A program made the translations under genes and the position numbers. A stretch of DNA of 22,615 nt. It comes from a virus. Below are positions 3,523-17,555 of the stretch, one piece after another (positions within the stretch are counted from its first letter, which is position 1; every line of letters begins with the position of its first letter). Under the pieces are notes generated by a model. The model worked only from the letters and a program-made list of their open reading frames with translations, was not told the DNA's origin and ran no database searches. The stretch spans positions 1 to 22,615 of IMG/VR virus record IMGVR_UViG_3300046804_000110, one strand, 5' to 3'.

Positions 3523-6853
<3,331 letters not shown>

Positions 6854-8294: not shown

Positions 8295-9224
8295 TTAGCC
8301 GTTTGTTGCAGCAGTTTCCAAACGATAGATAGCTGCTTGACGAAGGAGTGACCATCCGCCGAAGTAGTACCAACCGATTGTGTGGAAACGACGCAATGCG
8401 TCAATTTGTGGTCCAATGACGGTTGAGATGTCTTGGCCCATAGCTTCTGCAAGAGCTTCACGACCGGCAACAACTGCCTTGTAAACGTTAACTGATGCGG
8501 AGTTTGCTGCGTAAGGAACGCGAGGTGTTTCAACAACGAACGCACCTTCGATTACGCCGACAGCACCAGCCACGAATGGTGTGCGGTCTACGTACTTGCT
8601 GAGATCCTGGAATCCACCAGTACCAGTTTCAGCACGAAGATCTGCTGTCTGGCGTGGGTGTAGGTATGCAGCATAAAGCTCGCCAATACGTGGGAGAGCC
8701 TTGTTGGTGCGGAGTTCTGTTACAGCCTTACGGATAAGTGAAACTGTCATTTTATCTGTTGCAGCAACAGTGTTGGTTGAAGTTGCTGTGCCTGCATAAA
8801 GCACGTTGGAGCCTGCTGTAAGAACAGAAGCAACAACTGCGTCAATGGAGTCAGCAGCGTTATAAGCGATGATGTCTGCAAGAGCAGCGTCAACATCGTT
8901 GAAAGAAGTAAGGTTCAACTTCTTTGTGGTTGTTACGGCTGAGCCGTATTCTTGAAGGGTAACCGGAACTTGTGTTGGGTTACCGAGAGCAATGGAGGAA
9001 ACATCTGATGTTTCTGTCAATGTAGAAGTAGCCTGAGCTAAATCTGAATAGATTGAGAATACAACTGATGAACCAGGCATTGCTTGCTGTACCGGCTTAA
9101 CGTCAGCAAGTGCTCGCATAACAGGGATGCTACGAAGAGCCATACGAACATATTGATCGTACGCTGTTTGGACGAGATTGCTAATCGCAGAGGTACCGGT
9201 GAGTGTACCACCAGGAATTGCCAT
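8295..9224 (-). CDS. Major capsid protein, N4-gp56 family (HK97 fold), 309 aa
   Basis: The protein starts MAIPGGTLTGTSAISNLVQT. It shows the family layout: GSSVVFSIYSDLAQATSTLT (a strand and loop), TSDVSSIALGNPTQVPVTLQ, a YGSAVTTTKKLNLTS segment, a conserved YAAYLHPRQTADLRAETG near residue 185, VDRTPFVAGAVGVIEGAFVV with ETPRVPY, and an Ala-rich VVAGREALAEAMGQDISTVI near 255. These features match the N4-gp56 group of HK97-fold capsid proteins. The C-terminus has a Trp-rich HTIGWYYFGGWSLLRQAAIY segment. The ATG has AAAGG upstream. The scaffold-like gene comes just before it, as expected. No protease gene is visible nearby. High confidence. Confidence 0.93.
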   Translation of the reverse strand: MAIPGGTLTGTSAISNLVQTAYDQYVRMALRSIPVMRALADVKPVQQAMPGSSVVFSIYSDLAQATSTLTETSDVSSIALGNPTQVPVTLQEYGSAVTTTKKLNLTSFNDVDAALADIIAYNAADSIDAVVASVLTAGSNVLYAGTATSTNTVAATDKMTVSLIRKAVTELRTNKALPRIGELYAAYLHPRQTADLRAETGTGGFQDLSKYVDRTPFVAGAVGVIEGAFVVETPRVPYAANSASVNVYKAVVAGREALAEAMGQDISTVIGPQIDALRRFHTIGWYYFGGWSLLRQAAIYRLETAATNG

Positions 9225-9250: not shown

Positions 9251-9721
9251 TTATAAACCAGAGTTACGAATTACTTCATCCAACTCTTCACGGCTATTGG
9301 CAGACATAAGTTTACGCATAATGTCATCTGTTGAATCTGGCGTTAAGCCTTGTTCAACCACATTATTCATTTTCTTATATGCCGCAGCCTGAGCTGGATC
9401 AACTGCTGGTTTGCTGGTTTCAGCGGTCTGGATACCGAATACGTCGCCGTATTCATCCAACCACTTAGACAAAGACTCCTCAGTTGGGTCTATGTCCGAT
9501 GGAATGAAAGAAGAAATCTTCTTATTCACTCCGCGAGCTTCGAGGACATCCTTGATCGCTCTGTCTCTTTGAGCTTTGGAAAGGTGTTCAAACTGAGACT
9601 TTAACTCAGCAAGTTCTTTTTCCTTTTGCTTGTTTGCTTTACGCAACTGTTTGACGAGATCGTTATTTGTTGACTCTAATGAGTCATTATCGTCGTCGTC
9701 CTCGTAGTCGAAATTGGACAT
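9251..9721 (-). CDS. Probable capsid scaffolding protein, 156 aa
   Basis: The N-terminus (MSNFDYEDDDDNDSLESTNN) is very acidic. Residues about 22-55 form a Lys/Glu-rich coiled coil (LRKANKQKEKELAELKSQFE), followed by DVLEARGVNKKISSFIPSDI and helical segments ending DEVIRNSGL. Small, acidic, coiled-coil, and just upstream of the major capsid gene: this is the usual profile of phage scaffolds, which guide shell assembly and then leave. A longer frame begins at an ATG at 9736, but no ribosome site precedes it, while GGGAGATGG precedes the ATG at 9721, so I use the latter. It follows the structured 114-base gap. Confidence 0.85.
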   Translation of the reverse strand: MSNFDYEDDDDNDSLESTNNDLVKQLRKANKQKEKELAELKSQFEHLSKAQRDRAIKDVLEARGVNKKISSFIPSDIDPTEESLSKWLDEYGDVFGIQTAETSKPAVDPAQAAAYKKMNNVVEQGLTPDSTDDIMRKLMSANSREELDEVIRNSGL

Positions 9722-9752
9722 TAGTCCATCTCCCATTCATAGTAGTTAGCGC

Positions 9753-9843
9753 AGACCTCATACAGACTCGGGGACTTTCTGTATGGCTTCTGCTACCGGT
9801 CTTGGTGTCGCTCCACTAGGCCGGTAGTTCTAGTGGCAGGTCT
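9753..9843 (-). ncRNA. Candidate structured RNA with H-type pseudoknot in the gap before the scaffold gene
   Basis: In minus-strand RNA four perfect helices can form. P1 closes the element: AGACCT (9843-9838) with AGGTCT (9758-9753). P2 is CCACTAG (9836-9830) with CTAGTGG (9819-9813). Its loop holds CTACCGG (9827-9821), which pairs with CCGGTAG (9799-9793) to make an H-type pseudoknot with loops of 2, 1 and 13 bases, a sterically good geometry. P4 is CATACAGA (9785-9778) with TCTGTATG (9766-9759). The gap is otherwise the longest between genes here apart from the control region. It begins 7 bases after the 431-aa gene stop and ends 31 bases before the scaffold ATG. I do not recognise a known RNA family. 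Could control scaffold and capsid synthesis; function is inference. Confidence 0.6.
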
Positions 9844-9850
9844 ATGTTAT

Positions 9851-12692: not shown

Positions 12693-15600
12693 CTAACCTC
12701 CAATACCAGGAAGTCTCGAGAAGAGAACATCATAGGCAGCTTTAGTGTTTTCATTGTAGTTTGACAACTCTCTCAACTTAGCAATAGTGCTGTTCTTTAG
12801 AGAGTCAACCATAATTGTTGAACCTCCAAATTGGTCTAGTTGGTCTTTTTGTTTTTGATAGTTACTGTATGCGTCATACATCTGCTTGAGAATTGCTTCA
12901 GTCTTTGGACGAACACCAAGGTTCTGACTGAGCATATTTCCCAATTCATCAAGAGTACGTAGGCGGTCAATAGCCTTTTGGCTTCCTTGAGACAGTTCTT
13001 CTTGAACTAATGGACGACCTGCAAAGAATACCTTTTTCCACTCGTCAAACTTCTGACGAATCTGAGTCTTTTCAAATGGAGAAAATGCACGAGTAAGGTC
13101 TGCTTCGTATTGATCTTTGCGAGAGTAATACTGCTGCAAATCTGATGCTGTTTGTACCTCACGGAGGTAATCATCAACACGCTTGTTTTGAGTTAGACCT
13201 TCATCTTTAAAAGTCTTGTATGCGTCCCAAGAGAATCCTGACTTGTGAGGAATCAAGAATCCTGCCGCTTTAGGAAAAGCCTTAAACAGGTCTTTATTCT
13301 GGTCAACAAAGTACCCTGCTTCTTCAGAGTATCGAAGTGGTGCAAGTGATTTGCGCTCTGATTCTGGAATAGTAAAGGCAATCTGATTAGGAAACAGTTC
13401 TACCCACTTAGCCATTGCTGCGTCATAGTCACCTGGATACTGGTCAAGCAACTTATTAAAAGCCTGCTTAAAGTTTGCTCGTCCATTATCTGAAATCCAT
13501 TGAGCCATATCACTCTTTAGTGCCACCTGCGGTGTTGCTGGCGCAAAGAAGCCAAACACAAAACGCATACCAAGGATAGTTAGCGTAGTATTCTTAACCG
13601 CTAAGCGATACGCTTCCATCTCTTGCGCTGAAGGCGCTAAAAGCGTTCCATCTTTATCGTATTTCTTTGGAAGTCCGTGACCTGAAGCCTCAAGATAGGT
13701 AACTGCCTTGCGATATGCGCTGGCATACTGTGAGTTTCTGTCATCTTGGTTCATTGCCGCGTACAAACGGTTGATATGTGCTGGTAAAACAGCAGATAAG
13801 AACGGTTGATTGACCGCATACTTACCCATTGTGTAGCCTTGGATAGTATCTGCTGCGCCTGGATTCCAAATATTTACCAAACTTGATAAAGTCTGTATGG
13901 AAAGACCAGCAACTGGACCTGAAAACGTAGGCACTAGTGAGTCTGGGTTCAAAGATGGAGTAATCATCTTCAACTGTGCGCCAAATTGCACAGGGAATGG
14001 AACCTTAAACTCTTGCTTAATACCTAAACGCTCTAATGTGTTTTGAACTGCGTTGTATACCGGAGCAATTCCTGGGTAGATAAAGTAATCTTGACCCTGA
14101 TCGTCCTTTTGGACAAAGCCAGAGTGGGTAATTCCTTCATAAGTAAGAGCTGCTTTAACTACTGCCTGTGGGTTATACCGAACGATACGGTACAGACGGC
14201 GATAGAAGTCCTCAGTTGCGCGATAGAAACGAGCAAAGTTACGTGAAGCAAAAGCAATTTGCGTTCTTACCAGTGGGTTATCTACATACGAGGTAACCAT
14301 ACCCACTGCTCGCTCTTCTACAACGGTTGCTAAATCTTGTTTAGCCTTACGCGTAGCAGCGGCAATCTTTGTTGCTTCATTTGGGTCAATATTCTTTGTA
14401 TATGACTCAATCCACTTAGCTTCAAATCCAGTGTCGCGCATTTGCTTACGCATACGAATCATCTCTTCAAGCACCATAGGCTGACGAGACATACGAGCGT
14501 TAGCCATACCAAGCCACGTCCAGCCATTTGTCATTAAATTCTGAGCGTATTGTCCTGGTTCTACCGCTGGTACAAGCGTTGGTCCAACGACATTTCGTGG
14601 TACTTCTGTTGGGTCAGTTGGTAGGTCATCTAGTGAGAGTTTTCCACTGACAACGTATTTGCCAGACTCTTCATCAAAAGCACGAATCTTGTTGAGAAGA
14701 TCAACGTTAAGAGTTTTAGCATCCTCTTTAAGGAAGAGTTCTTTTGCTCGGTTATAGGCAATCTGAACAATACCGCGAGCGTCCATATCATTCTGAAGTC
14801 GTGCATCAGATAAGAACTTTTGACCTTGCTTGGTATTGTTTACCCAATCAAGCATTTCACGAATAGCACGTGTTTCATCTTGTGCCTTTGAACCCATATT
14901 AGCAATAGCGATAGCGCCAAGTTTATCATTGGCATAGTAACCAATACGCATCAACCAAGTAACCATCGAGGCTTCATCATCTGGTGATACTGCTTGGACC
15001 TTATATCCGCGCTCGCCGGCTTTCTTTACATATCGAGCAGCGCCAGCTTGGTCAATCGTTAGATTGTGTGTGCGAACACCTAAACTACGAACAAGGTTAC
15101 GTGCTGATGAAATGTAGTCATTGCCTGTGGCAAAGTTGAATCCACCTTCAGAAACATCAGCAAGAACGTTATCAATATTTCCATAGATAATCTGTTCTGC
15201 TAAAAGTTCAGCATCTTCCTGATTAACAGGCTTGAGTCCAAGTTTTGCTCTAAAGCGGTTTAACTTACCTTCGGTTAAGGCACGAGCGAGGATTTGTCGA
15301 GTCTGACCGACAACTCCACCCTTGATGCCTTTTTCGATATCGTTAATTTTATTCTTAATATCTTGAGCAGCAACAGGGTCTTTTGTTGTTTTAAGTGTTG
15401 ATTTAAGTTTAGCAACTTCAGAACGGCCGTCTTTGATTTTCTTATTAAGGCCAACAATTTCTTCTTCGTATTTTGTTACGTCATTTTTATTAACCAAACG
15501 CATTACAGCGCCTAGTGGATCTTCGGCTTTTCCTGCTAAACCCTTACCTTCATTCATTGCTGAATAGACTGTATTGAGGCGGGTAGAAAGCATACGGCTT

Positions 15601-17555
15601 TTGGCAATTCCCCAAGGAGATTCACCTATAGCAAGGTTAACCATTAAATCTTCTGATGCGTTACGTACTGCATAACGTGGGCCAGCAAGAGTTAAAAATG
15701 ACCAAGCGCTGGTTACGTTGCTTGCAAAGTCGCTATTAGCAATACCAATTACTTTTTGAATCCAGCCGTTGCGAGCTGCCGCAGCGTCCAAATCTTGAAT
15801 TGTTGGAACAGATACAAAGTTATTGAAGTCTGAAGGAATTGCACCTTTGTCGGCAAATTCATCCGTTAAACCGTGTCTAACGTTTCCTTTGCCAAGCATT
15901 GTTCGTACTAACGCCTGACCTGGCAACGTGGTATTCATACCGCGAACTTCGGTGATGGTTTTCCATAAACCGTAGTAAACATCTTTACGCTTACCTACGT
16001 CGTCAATGTTATCAAACGCTTCAGACAATAGTCGAGCATTTTTAGTAGGAAGAACCATTACTGCGATGCGATAGATTTTATCAGCAGCATCTGGTTCCAT
16101 CACATCAAACACATCATTTTTAAATAGTGGAGCGTACGTGAATGAAGCCTTTACGCGGTCAATCTTGTGCATAATATAATTAGTAGAAAATCTAGCAATA
16201 CCTTTAAAACTGGTATTCTTGGTTACATTTTCTACAATTGCTTTTTGACCGTTGATAATTGCTTCAGCAATACCATCCGTAGTAGGAGCCTGACCATAAA
16301 AATAGTCATTAGTAAATTTAGCGCCGTCTTTGAATACATCAAATATCTTATTGCCAGTGGTGGCAGCGTTTACTCGTAACTTACGTAATGGATCCATACG
16401 AGGAATAATGGTTCGGTAGCGAGTGGTGTTTCCAGCGATAATCTCTGCTACATCTTTTGCATTACCAAAAAATGCTTTGGCGGTAAGAGCATCCGTTACT
16501 GGAATCTCAGCTTTTTGAAAAGCCTTGATAACTGCTGGACCAAATTCAGGAGCAAGTATGCCAAGTTCATTTTTAGCCTTAGCAATTGCTACTGGGTTTC
16601 TTGCTTCTTGAGCCTTGGTAAGTTCTTGAAGTTTTGCGCCGTATTGGTCAAAGAAACTAACAACAGATGGCTTGGCAAATACTTCATCTACCTTACCAGC
16701 GCCAATAACAACATCTAACGCATACTTAGATACATCATAAAGACGCTTTGTTTTACCAGCGATAAGTAGTGGGTCTGCCAATACTCGATATGCTGCATCT
16801 ACCGCGCCAGAGATTGGCTTGTAAAAAAGACCAGAACCTTCAAGGTCTGCTGGGAGAACAAGGTTTGCAACCCAACGACCAGGTGAATACTTAGAAGCCT
16901 GAACTGCATCGAGTGTATCTTGAAATAAGCCACGCGCTGCTTTAATCTCTTCAGGAGAAGTTAACCCTGGAATGACAGTATTTGTTGGGTCTGCCAACAT
17001 TAAATATTTAATTTGCTCTGGAGTTGCCGATTTTTTAATAACGGCAGGATCTTCGCCAGAAGCAATTCTCATCGCTATATCTACAGCGTCATTACCAAAC
17101 TTTGCTTTTGCATCATTGATGCGATTTGGCGAGAATACTTTATCGCCTTTATCGTTAGCAATTGTCCACGCTGTTCCAACATCAACACCTTGGTCTCCAG
17201 CGATTTGAACTGTACGTGCAACGCGAGTAGAAAAATCTGAAACGTTGCCTAAACCAGCAAGAATGTGACTGCCAGTATAACCAATAGCGTTAGCAACTGC
17301 GCCACCTGTATAGTGCCACGCAGTACCAAGCCAGCCTCGCTTTTGCTTGACAGCAGGATCTTCGTTACCAAAGTTCTGTACAAGGTTTGTTTGTTGACCT
17401 GGTGTTAATTTTTGATACGCCTGTTGAGCTACATTTTGTGGAAGATTGGAAAGTTCCTTATGTGCTTGTAGCGCTTTATTAAAGTCATCAATCTTCTTTT
17501 GCTCAGTAGGTGATAATTGCGCCGCTAATGCAGCAGCTTTCAAATTATCTGGCAT
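12693..17555 (-). CDS. Very large virion-associated protein, 1620 aa, probably internal or ejected
   Basis: The largest gene, 1620 codons. The protein is mostly helical with a Gly-rich segment near 75-105 (TGGAVANAIGYTGSHILAGL). A coiled coil runs near 690-745 (KYEEEIVGLNKKIKDGRSEV). Aromatic and Arg-rich parts occur near 1108 (RNFARFYRATEDFYRRLYRI) and hydrophobic parts near 612-642 and 1318-1342 (TTLTILGMRFVFGFFAPATP). No protease, lysozyme or polymerase motif is visible to me. The start ATG overlaps the 138-aa stop as TAATG, with GAGGTAACTA upstream. It is far too large for a scaffold. I favour an internal virion or ejection protein; a large polyvalent-type protein, which phages often carry in the head, is the alternative. 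A tape measure is less likely, since no tail tube or chaperone genes flank it. Confidence 0.65.
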   Translation of the reverse strand: MPDNLKAAALAAQLSPTEQKKIDDFNKALQAHKELSNLPQNVAQQAYQKLTPGQQTNLVQNFGNEDPAVKQKRGWLGTAWHYTGGAVANAIGYTGSHILAGLGNVSDFSTRVARTVQIAGDQGVDVGTAWTIANDKGDKVFSPNRINDAKAKFGNDAVDIAMRIASGEDPAVIKKSATPEQIKYLMLADPTNTVIPGLTSPEEIKAARGLFQDTLDAVQASKYSPGRWVANLVLPADLEGSGLFYKPISGAVDAAYRVLADPLLIAGKTKRLYDVSKYALDVVIGAGKVDEVFAKPSVVSFFDQYGAKLQELTKAQEARNPVAIAKAKNELGILAPEFGPAVIKAFQKAEIPVTDALTAKAFFGNAKDVAEIIAGNTTRYRTIIPRMDPLRKLRVNAATTGNKIFDVFKDGAKFTNDYFYGQAPTTDGIAEAIINGQKAIVENVTKNTSFKGIARFSTNYIMHKIDRVKASFTYAPLFKNDVFDVMEPDAADKIYRIAVMVLPTKNARLLSEAFDNIDDVGKRKDVYYGLWKTITEVRGMNTTLPGQALVRTMLGKGNVRHGLTDEFADKGAIPSDFNNFVSVPTIQDLDAAAARNGWIQKVIGIANSDFASNVTSAWSFLTLAGPRYAVRNASEDLMVNLAIGESPWGIAKSRMLSTRLNTVYSAMNEGKGLAGKAEDPLGAVMRLVNKNDVTKYEEEIVGLNKKIKDGRSEVAKLKSTLKTTKDPVAAQDIKNKINDIEKGIKGGVVGQTRQILARALTEGKLNRFRAKLGLKPVNQEDAELLAEQIIYGNIDNVLADVSEGGFNFATGNDYISSARNLVRSLGVRTHNLTIDQAGAARYVKKAGERGYKVQAVSPDDEASMVTWLMRIGYYANDKLGAIAIANMGSKAQDETRAIREMLDWVNNTKQGQKFLSDARLQNDMDARGIVQIAYNRAKELFLKEDAKTLNVDLLNKIRAFDEESGKYVVSGKLSLDDLPTDPTEVPRNVVGPTLVPAVEPGQYAQNLMTNGWTWLGMANARMSRQPMVLEEMIRMRKQMRDTGFEAKWIESYTKNIDPNEATKIAAATRKAKQDLATVVEERAVGMVTSYVDNPLVRTQIAFASRNFARFYRATEDFYRRLYRIVRYNPQAVVKAALTYEGITHSGFVQKDDQGQDYFIYPGIAPVYNAVQNTLERLGIKQEFKVPFPVQFGAQLKMITPSLNPDSLVPTFSGPVAGLSIQTLSSLVNIWNPGAADTIQGYTMGKYAVNQPFLSAVLPAHINRLYAAMNQDDRNSQYASAYRKAVTYLEASGHGLPKKYDKDGTLLAPSAQEMEAYRLAVKNTTLTILGMRFVFGFFAPATPQVALKSDMAQWISDNGRANFKQAFNKLLDQYPGDYDAAMAKWVELFPNQIAFTIPESERKSLAPLRYSEEAGYFVDQNKDLFKAFPKAAGFLIPHKSGFSWDAYKTFKDEGLTQNKRVDDYLREVQTASDLQQYYSRKDQYEADLTRAFSPFEKTQIRQKFDEWKKVFFAGRPLVQEELSQGSQKAIDRLRTLDELGNMLSQNLGVRPKTEAILKQMYDAYSNYQKQKDQLDQFGGSTIMVDSLKNSTIAKLRELSNYNENTKAAYDVLFSRLPGIGG

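Follow-up and report, generated by a model that had tools for sequence, protein, structure and literature searches.

The locus raises the question of what is encoded in the gap that precedes the scaffold and capsid genes of this phage, and on which genes any product of that gap would act. The window, that is, the whole stretch of DNA analysed, comprises 22,615 nt of the IMG/VR virus record IMGVR_UViG_3300046804_000110. An initial annotation had drawn attention to a gap of 114 nt, which was confirmed between the annotated ORFs (9737–9850); the likely start of the scaffold gene is the ATG at 9721. The ORF layout of the window places transcription of the flanking genes on the minus strand, and the RNA to be considered is therefore the reverse complement. 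Folded without the pseudoknot, this strand gives a better fold than its dinucleotide shuffles (z −3.05, 2/200). The plus strand has a better minimum free energy (z −3.75) and was dropped since the flanking genes and the homologues orient the minus strand as sense, covariation alone being unable to separate plus- from minus-strand versions of the same pairs, G–U wobbles excepted. Other genes on the minus strand of the window encode a protein of 999 aa (3523–6522) that carries long G-x-y repeats of the collagen type and is probably a tail fibre, and a protein of 1620 aa (12693–17555), whose gene belongs to the virion region and stands upstream of those for 513 and 431 aa. A covariance model matches the window at 9729–9844 (111.9 bits, E 3.1e-27), the window sequence being among those from which the model was built. 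The element is approximately 95 bases long, and its parts and the genes following it are listed here in the order of the RNA:

9745–9841, minus strand: whole conserved element, comprising the S1/S2 pseudoknot and the P3 hairpin, the proposed scaffold/capsid leader (covariance model match, 70-sequence alignment)
9830–9839, minus strand: S1 5′ strand, CU (9839–9838), bulged G 9837 and CCACUAG (9836–9830) (covariation of the 7-bp core; CU/AG extension read from clade B)
9821–9827, minus strand: S2 (pseudoknot) 5′ strand, CUACCGG (covariation in clade A, replicated in clade B)
9811–9819, minus strand: S1 3′ strand, CUAGUGG (9819–9813) and AG (9812–9811) (basis as for the S1 5′ strand)
9800–9810, minus strand: loop L3, in which certain G and A residues are conserved (clade A alignment)
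9793–9799, minus strand: S2 3′ strand, CCGGUAG (covariation in clades A and B)
9789–9793, minus strand: P3 lower stem, 5′ strand GCAGA (covariation in clades A and B; missed in the initial annotation)
9786–9788, minus strand: internal loop, 5′ side AGC (invariant in the clade A alignment; kept in clade B and in Streptomyces contigs)
9759–9785, minus strand: P3 upper hairpin, CAUACAGA/UCUGUAUG (95.5% paired, 5/7 pairs doubly changed in clade A)
9770–9773, minus strand: apical loop motif CCCC (C run of at least 4 in 95/95 nonredundant clade A and B elements)
9756–9758, minus strand: internal loop, 3′ side AGG, in a minority UGG or CGG (sequences of clades A, B and C)
9751–9755, minus strand: P3 lower stem, 3′ strand UCUGC (covariation in clades A and B)
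9730–9734, minus strand: scaffold Shine-Dalgarno (SD) GGGAG, possible partner of the CCCC loop in a putative pairing (SD count over 94 scaffold starts)
9715–9728, minus strand: start-codon hairpin UGGAC-UAAU-GUCCA around the likely scaffold AUG at 9721–9719 (stem counts and variants)
9251–9721, minus strand: scaffold gene, the first after the element (weak PHROG head scaffolding matches, E 9e-5; immediately ahead of the capsid gene; homologue at the equivalent position annotated "scaffolding protein")
8295–9224, minus strand: major capsid gene (PHROG major head protein, E 7e-78)

IMG/VR stretches contain 548 relatives of the capsid protein, and the best 80 of these 548 loci were examined as clade A. 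Every one of them that reaches far enough upstream has a gap of similar size with the motif before its scaffold gene, and an alignment of 70 distinct sequences was made from these freshwater phages. Four helices had been drawn in the gap, and all four are present in the window on the minus strand: S1 (CCACUAG/CUAGUGG), S2 (CUACCGG/CCGGUAG), a hairpin (CAUACAGA/UCUGUAUG) and an enclosing stem (AGACCU/AGGUCU). The first three covary, whereas the 6-bp enclosing stem does not hold: pair 3–96 is unpaired in 33/64 sequences, 2–97 in 13 and 7–92 in 7, double changes occur at one pair only, and the stem is absent from the top 35 pairs of an unguided mutual-information scan in both clades A and B. Its 3′ strand is instead that of the lower stem of P3, GCAGA/UCUGC, which is 100% paired with 3/5 pairs doubly changed in clade A, and likewise in clade B.

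The H-type pseudoknot that had been proposed, with loops of 2, 1 and 13 in the window sequence, is strongly supported in both its helices by covariation in clade A, replicated in clade B. The 7-bp core of S1 is 97.3% paired with double changes in 6/7 pairs (clade A, 70 sequences). The clade B sequences suggest that the invariant 5′ CU pairs with the AG after the S1 3′ strand and makes S1 longer, with a bulge, an extension that is invariant in clade A and so carries no covariation test there. The core pairs of S2 (21–54 to 24–51) form in 100% of the 70 sequences, one of them being doubly changed in 34, and in most relatives the helix has 4–6 bp, fewer than the 7 bp of the window. Beside the pseudoknot stands P3, a long hairpin with a 3×3 internal loop, AGC/(A,U)GG, and the apical loop CCCC. 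For the revised structure as a whole, 93.6% of pairs form in the clade A alignment (n = 70), and for 17/25 pairs there is at least one sequence in which both partners have changed. None of 500 shuffles reached the observed score; these shuffles take the sequences as unrelated, a weakness lessened by slid controls (25–48% paired), by the unguided scan of both alignments, whose strongest pairs are nearly all in S1, S2, P3-lower and P3-upper, and by replication across clades. Unpaired positions are also strongly conserved in the clade A alignment. A CCU–AGG tertiary helix was considered and rejected, as two of its pairs are invariant and 7/70 sequences break its U–A pair without compensation.

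The element extends beyond these close relatives. Contig L083, with a capsid protein approximately 47% identical, carries it, and among 80 loci around the L083 capsid (clade B, likewise from freshwater) 71 are model matches, the remaining 9/80 beginning too near the capsid gene to contain it. The element was found in every examined locus of clades A and B with enough upstream DNA. An independent clade B alignment (n = 49) is 96.2% paired, with 16/26 pairs doubly changed and slid controls at 27–46%. Diverged versions occur in Streptomyces contigs, in cultured Beephvirinae and in soil phages. The model matches the Streptomyces contigs L284, L285 and L283 (E 0.0018, 0.0032 and 0.032) and L286, a contig of an Actinomycetota MAG (E 2.6e-12). 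A search for hosts by genome scan gave no match among close capsid relatives; an alignment query matched Streptomyces and Actinomycetota/Micrococcales contigs. The presence of the element in Streptomyces contigs and in the Actinomycetota MAG contig points to hosts among the Actinomycetota.

In cultured Beephvirinae a gap of 113–117 nt separates the scaffold gene from the last tRNA, and eight distinct sequences share the same architecture (99% paired, 14/25 pairs doubly changed), as counted on the alignment because a bulge-free descriptor search is blind to their pseudoknot (0/6 in clade D). Inspected by eye, four clade C phages (L328, L329, L331 and L335) show no recognisable pseudoknot; P3 is retained in them, together with the AGC/(A,U)GG motif and a loop rich in C. 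An automated search for P3 did not succeed at about a dozen loci of clade D and some twenty that are clade C-like, and there the boundaries of the family are provisional. The soil phages L505–L534 apparently carry a more diverged version with a pseudoknot-like pairing, a CCCC-loop hairpin and a GGGAG Shine-Dalgarno.

The initial annotation had named compensatory changes and a conserved gap as the check on its reading; both are found in the homologous gaps of the freshwater phages, and compensatory changes are present in both pseudoknot helices in clades A and B and in Beephvirinae. On this comparative evidence, the element is a real, strongly conserved structured RNA with an H-type pseudoknot. 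By sequence match it occurs in hundreds of environmental phage contigs from lakes and soil, counted as contigs and sequences rather than as independent events, and in the cultured Streptomyces phages Manuel, Kumquat, FlowerPower and Treat. The RNA family is absent from Rfam 15, the library searched.

What follows the element is more constant than what precedes it. The upstream neighbour is the gene of a 431-aa-type protein in clades A and B and a tRNA array in clade D, while at many clade C loci TACA(T/G)T, a pattern match read as a putative promoter, lies approximately 8 nt before S1, sometimes after an intrinsic terminator. In two clade C phages without the pseudoknot TACAGT lies 16–17 nt before P3, compared with 46–63 nt in most others where it was found. 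A TAGC...GCTA inverted repeat just upstream of TACA(T/G)T, some 60–90 nt before P3 in clade C (e.g., L303, L316, L332), is reminiscent of a late promoter's operator or activator site. In Streptomyces-type phages (L082, L288–L297, L380–L459) the element in many cases directly follows tRNA genes, from a single one to arrays of as many as 21. Downstream, the gene pair is constant, although in clades C and D, which were collected through capsid homology, this constancy is partly by construction. A capsid-blind DNA pattern, drawn from P3 and the adjacent region of the S2 3′ strand alone, returned at least 120 IMG/VR stretches; among the matches listed, 78/80 loci are covariance model matches, and wherever the downstream DNA extends far enough the scaffold gene comes next, followed by the capsid gene where this too is reached. 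As the upstream context changes while the scaffold and capsid genes stay, these two genes are most likely the targets of an action in cis. Stop-codon readthrough of the upstream gene was rejected, as the gap length is not kept modulo 3, and so was a tRNA-like element, no tRNA being called in the freshwater loci scanned.

The start of the scaffold gene is itself unusual. All 94 nonredundant scaffold starts of clades A and B (100%) have a GGGAG or GGGUG SD, compared with 7% of the 721 other gene starts at these loci. A hairpin whose stem has 4 bp or more holds the start codon in its loop in 92/94 of them and in 81/721 (11%) of the others. Both comparisons are of related sequences and not of independent counts. 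The two exceptions are one 3-bp stem and one start scored at the wrong ATG. The stems vary between clades with pairing kept (GGAC/GUCC, GUUGC/GCAAC, AUUGC/GCAAU, GGUAG/CUACC), even though the serine/alanine codons after the start change and the serine of codon 2 is written either TCC or AGC. Enrichment of the start hairpin drops to about twofold in clades C and D (32/83 vs. 82/438). A linker of 12–20 nt, 57% A, separates the P3 apical loop from the SD (95 elements of clades A and B). The two sequences are complementary: the loop keeps a C-run and the SD a G-run outside the phages with a CTAGG-type SD (Beephvirinae), and in these both have changed and are still complementary (CCUAG/CUAGG). With the CTAGG-type group left out, covariation of loop and SD is not significant (permutation p of 0.34 in D and 0.63 in C), so that the contact rests mainly on conserved complementarity; we hypothesise that the two pair.

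From the observed structure, conservation and position, and the bias in SD and start hairpin, we infer translational control together with its direction, the loop–SD contact and a trigger. The preferred reading, with a probability of about 0.5, is that the element is a structured 5′ leader of the scaffold–capsid unit acting in cis on scaffold translation; the earlier suggestion that a pseudoknotted functional RNA may set scaffold and capsid output is upheld as a possibility. The S1/S2 pseudoknot would stand beside P3, followed by an A-rich linker of approximately 15 nt, the GGG-type SD and, in most members, the start-codon hairpin. In a closed state the C-rich loop would pair with the SD, the start hairpin would be shut and scaffold synthesis would be low. 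This balance could be shifted by ribosome loading or by a factor, either from the host or a free head protein of the phage, that recognises the internal loop and the pseudoknot; scaffold and capsid output would in this way be matched to assembly, parallel to gp32 on T4 gene 32 mRNA; a free head protein as the trigger is a guess. Tentatively, the element might represent a new class of capsid-assembly sensor in many Actinomycetota phages, in which either a host factor or a free phage head protein recognises the AGC/AGG loop and the C-rich loop seals or frees the scaffold SD, coupling capsid gene translation to assembly.

Stabilisation of the mRNA 5′ end is the main rival to this translational leader. 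The element would then mark or protect the scaffold–capsid mRNA from 5′-to-3′ exonucleases and raise capsid yield without any control of initiation, the 5′ end arising by tRNA processing, endonuclease cutting or a promoter start. Knotted 5′ structures are able to block exonucleases, and the element does lie a few bases at most from whichever feature precedes it, be it a stop codon, the 3′ end of a tRNA or a promoter-like motif. However, such a device leaves the invariant C-rich apical loop, the biased SD and the start-codon hairpin unexplained, and none of three members matched an exonuclease-resistant Rfam family. We consider it rather unlikely, while noting that it is compatible with translational control and that a leader of that kind would look similar. 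Action in trans, as a free phage RNA, had also been suggested; such an RNA might serve packaging or titrate a host factor, and the pronounced conservation of unpaired positions and the location in the head-gene region would suit it. The strict linkage to one scaffold/capsid gene pair in the loci examined argues against it, as does the absence of a second strong model match from the stretches analysed, which are partial genomes; moreover, the C-rich loop matches the adjacent SD and no terminator was called just downstream of the element in the window. A trans-acting RNA is thus hardly to be expected.

A search of Rfam had been proposed, and was run on three members (the window, L085 and L284); at E ≤ 10 it returned chance-level matches only, far below gathering scores. 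A riboswitch that senses a metabolite or an ion and controls translation of the capsid would account for a compact pseudoknot and a strictly conserved internal loop beside the SD, yet no Rfam riboswitch matched, there is no metabolic context and, across the loci examined, the element is confined to a single late gene pair, making this very improbable. Least probable is a self-cleaving ribozyme of the pistol type, separating the scaffold–capsid mRNA from the upstream transcript, a lead that is not supported. Both RNAs have a hairpin with a loop pseudoknot and then a hairpin, here with a conserved purine-rich internal loop, and pistol ribozymes too are phage-associated (PMC4604425). The helix order differs, however: P2 of pistol lies outside and around the pseudoknot 3′ strand (PMC4604425), a topology absent from the element, where an extra stem 3′ of that strand covaries and no L3-to-3′ pairing stands out in the unguided mutual-information scan. 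No Rfam ribozyme, including the pistol model (RF02679), matched the three members at E ≤ 10, the four clade C phages keep P3 without a recognisable pseudoknot, and many clade C elements adjoin a promoter-like motif, where cutting would free nothing.

How tailed phages control the ratio and timing of scaffold and capsid is poorly understood, and the element offers a conserved RNA handle on this in cultured phages. No description of it was found in the literature on Beephvirinae or phage structured RNAs, a coverage outside of which most subscription journals fall. As regards known RNAs, domain IV of SRP RNA has a symmetric 3×3 loop with AGG opposite AGC. The internal loop of P3 is alike, but it is turned end-for-end relative to the capping loop, and the element has neither the asymmetric loop nor a GNRA-type cap, so the likeness is a lead only. 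In the Escherichia coli rpsO (S15) mRNA the pseudoknot includes the initiation region itself, whereas that of the element lies well upstream of this region, with P3 between. The rpsO pseudoknot governs translation initiation via an autogenous protein, according to a reference in PMC11262651. The T4/T2 gene 32 mRNA carries an autoregulatory pseudoknot (McPheeters 1988 and Du 1996, as cited in PMC11262651). As far as that account goes, both it and the element are H-type pseudoknots in a phage gene leader, upstream of the start codon; the gene, the sequence and the loops differ, with no homology. To our knowledge, the gene 32 leader is without a P3 hairpin, an AGC/AGG loop, a CCCC loop or a start-codon hairpin. 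Autogenous control as in gene 32 is proposed as the parallel, being not homologous but the nearest in kind.
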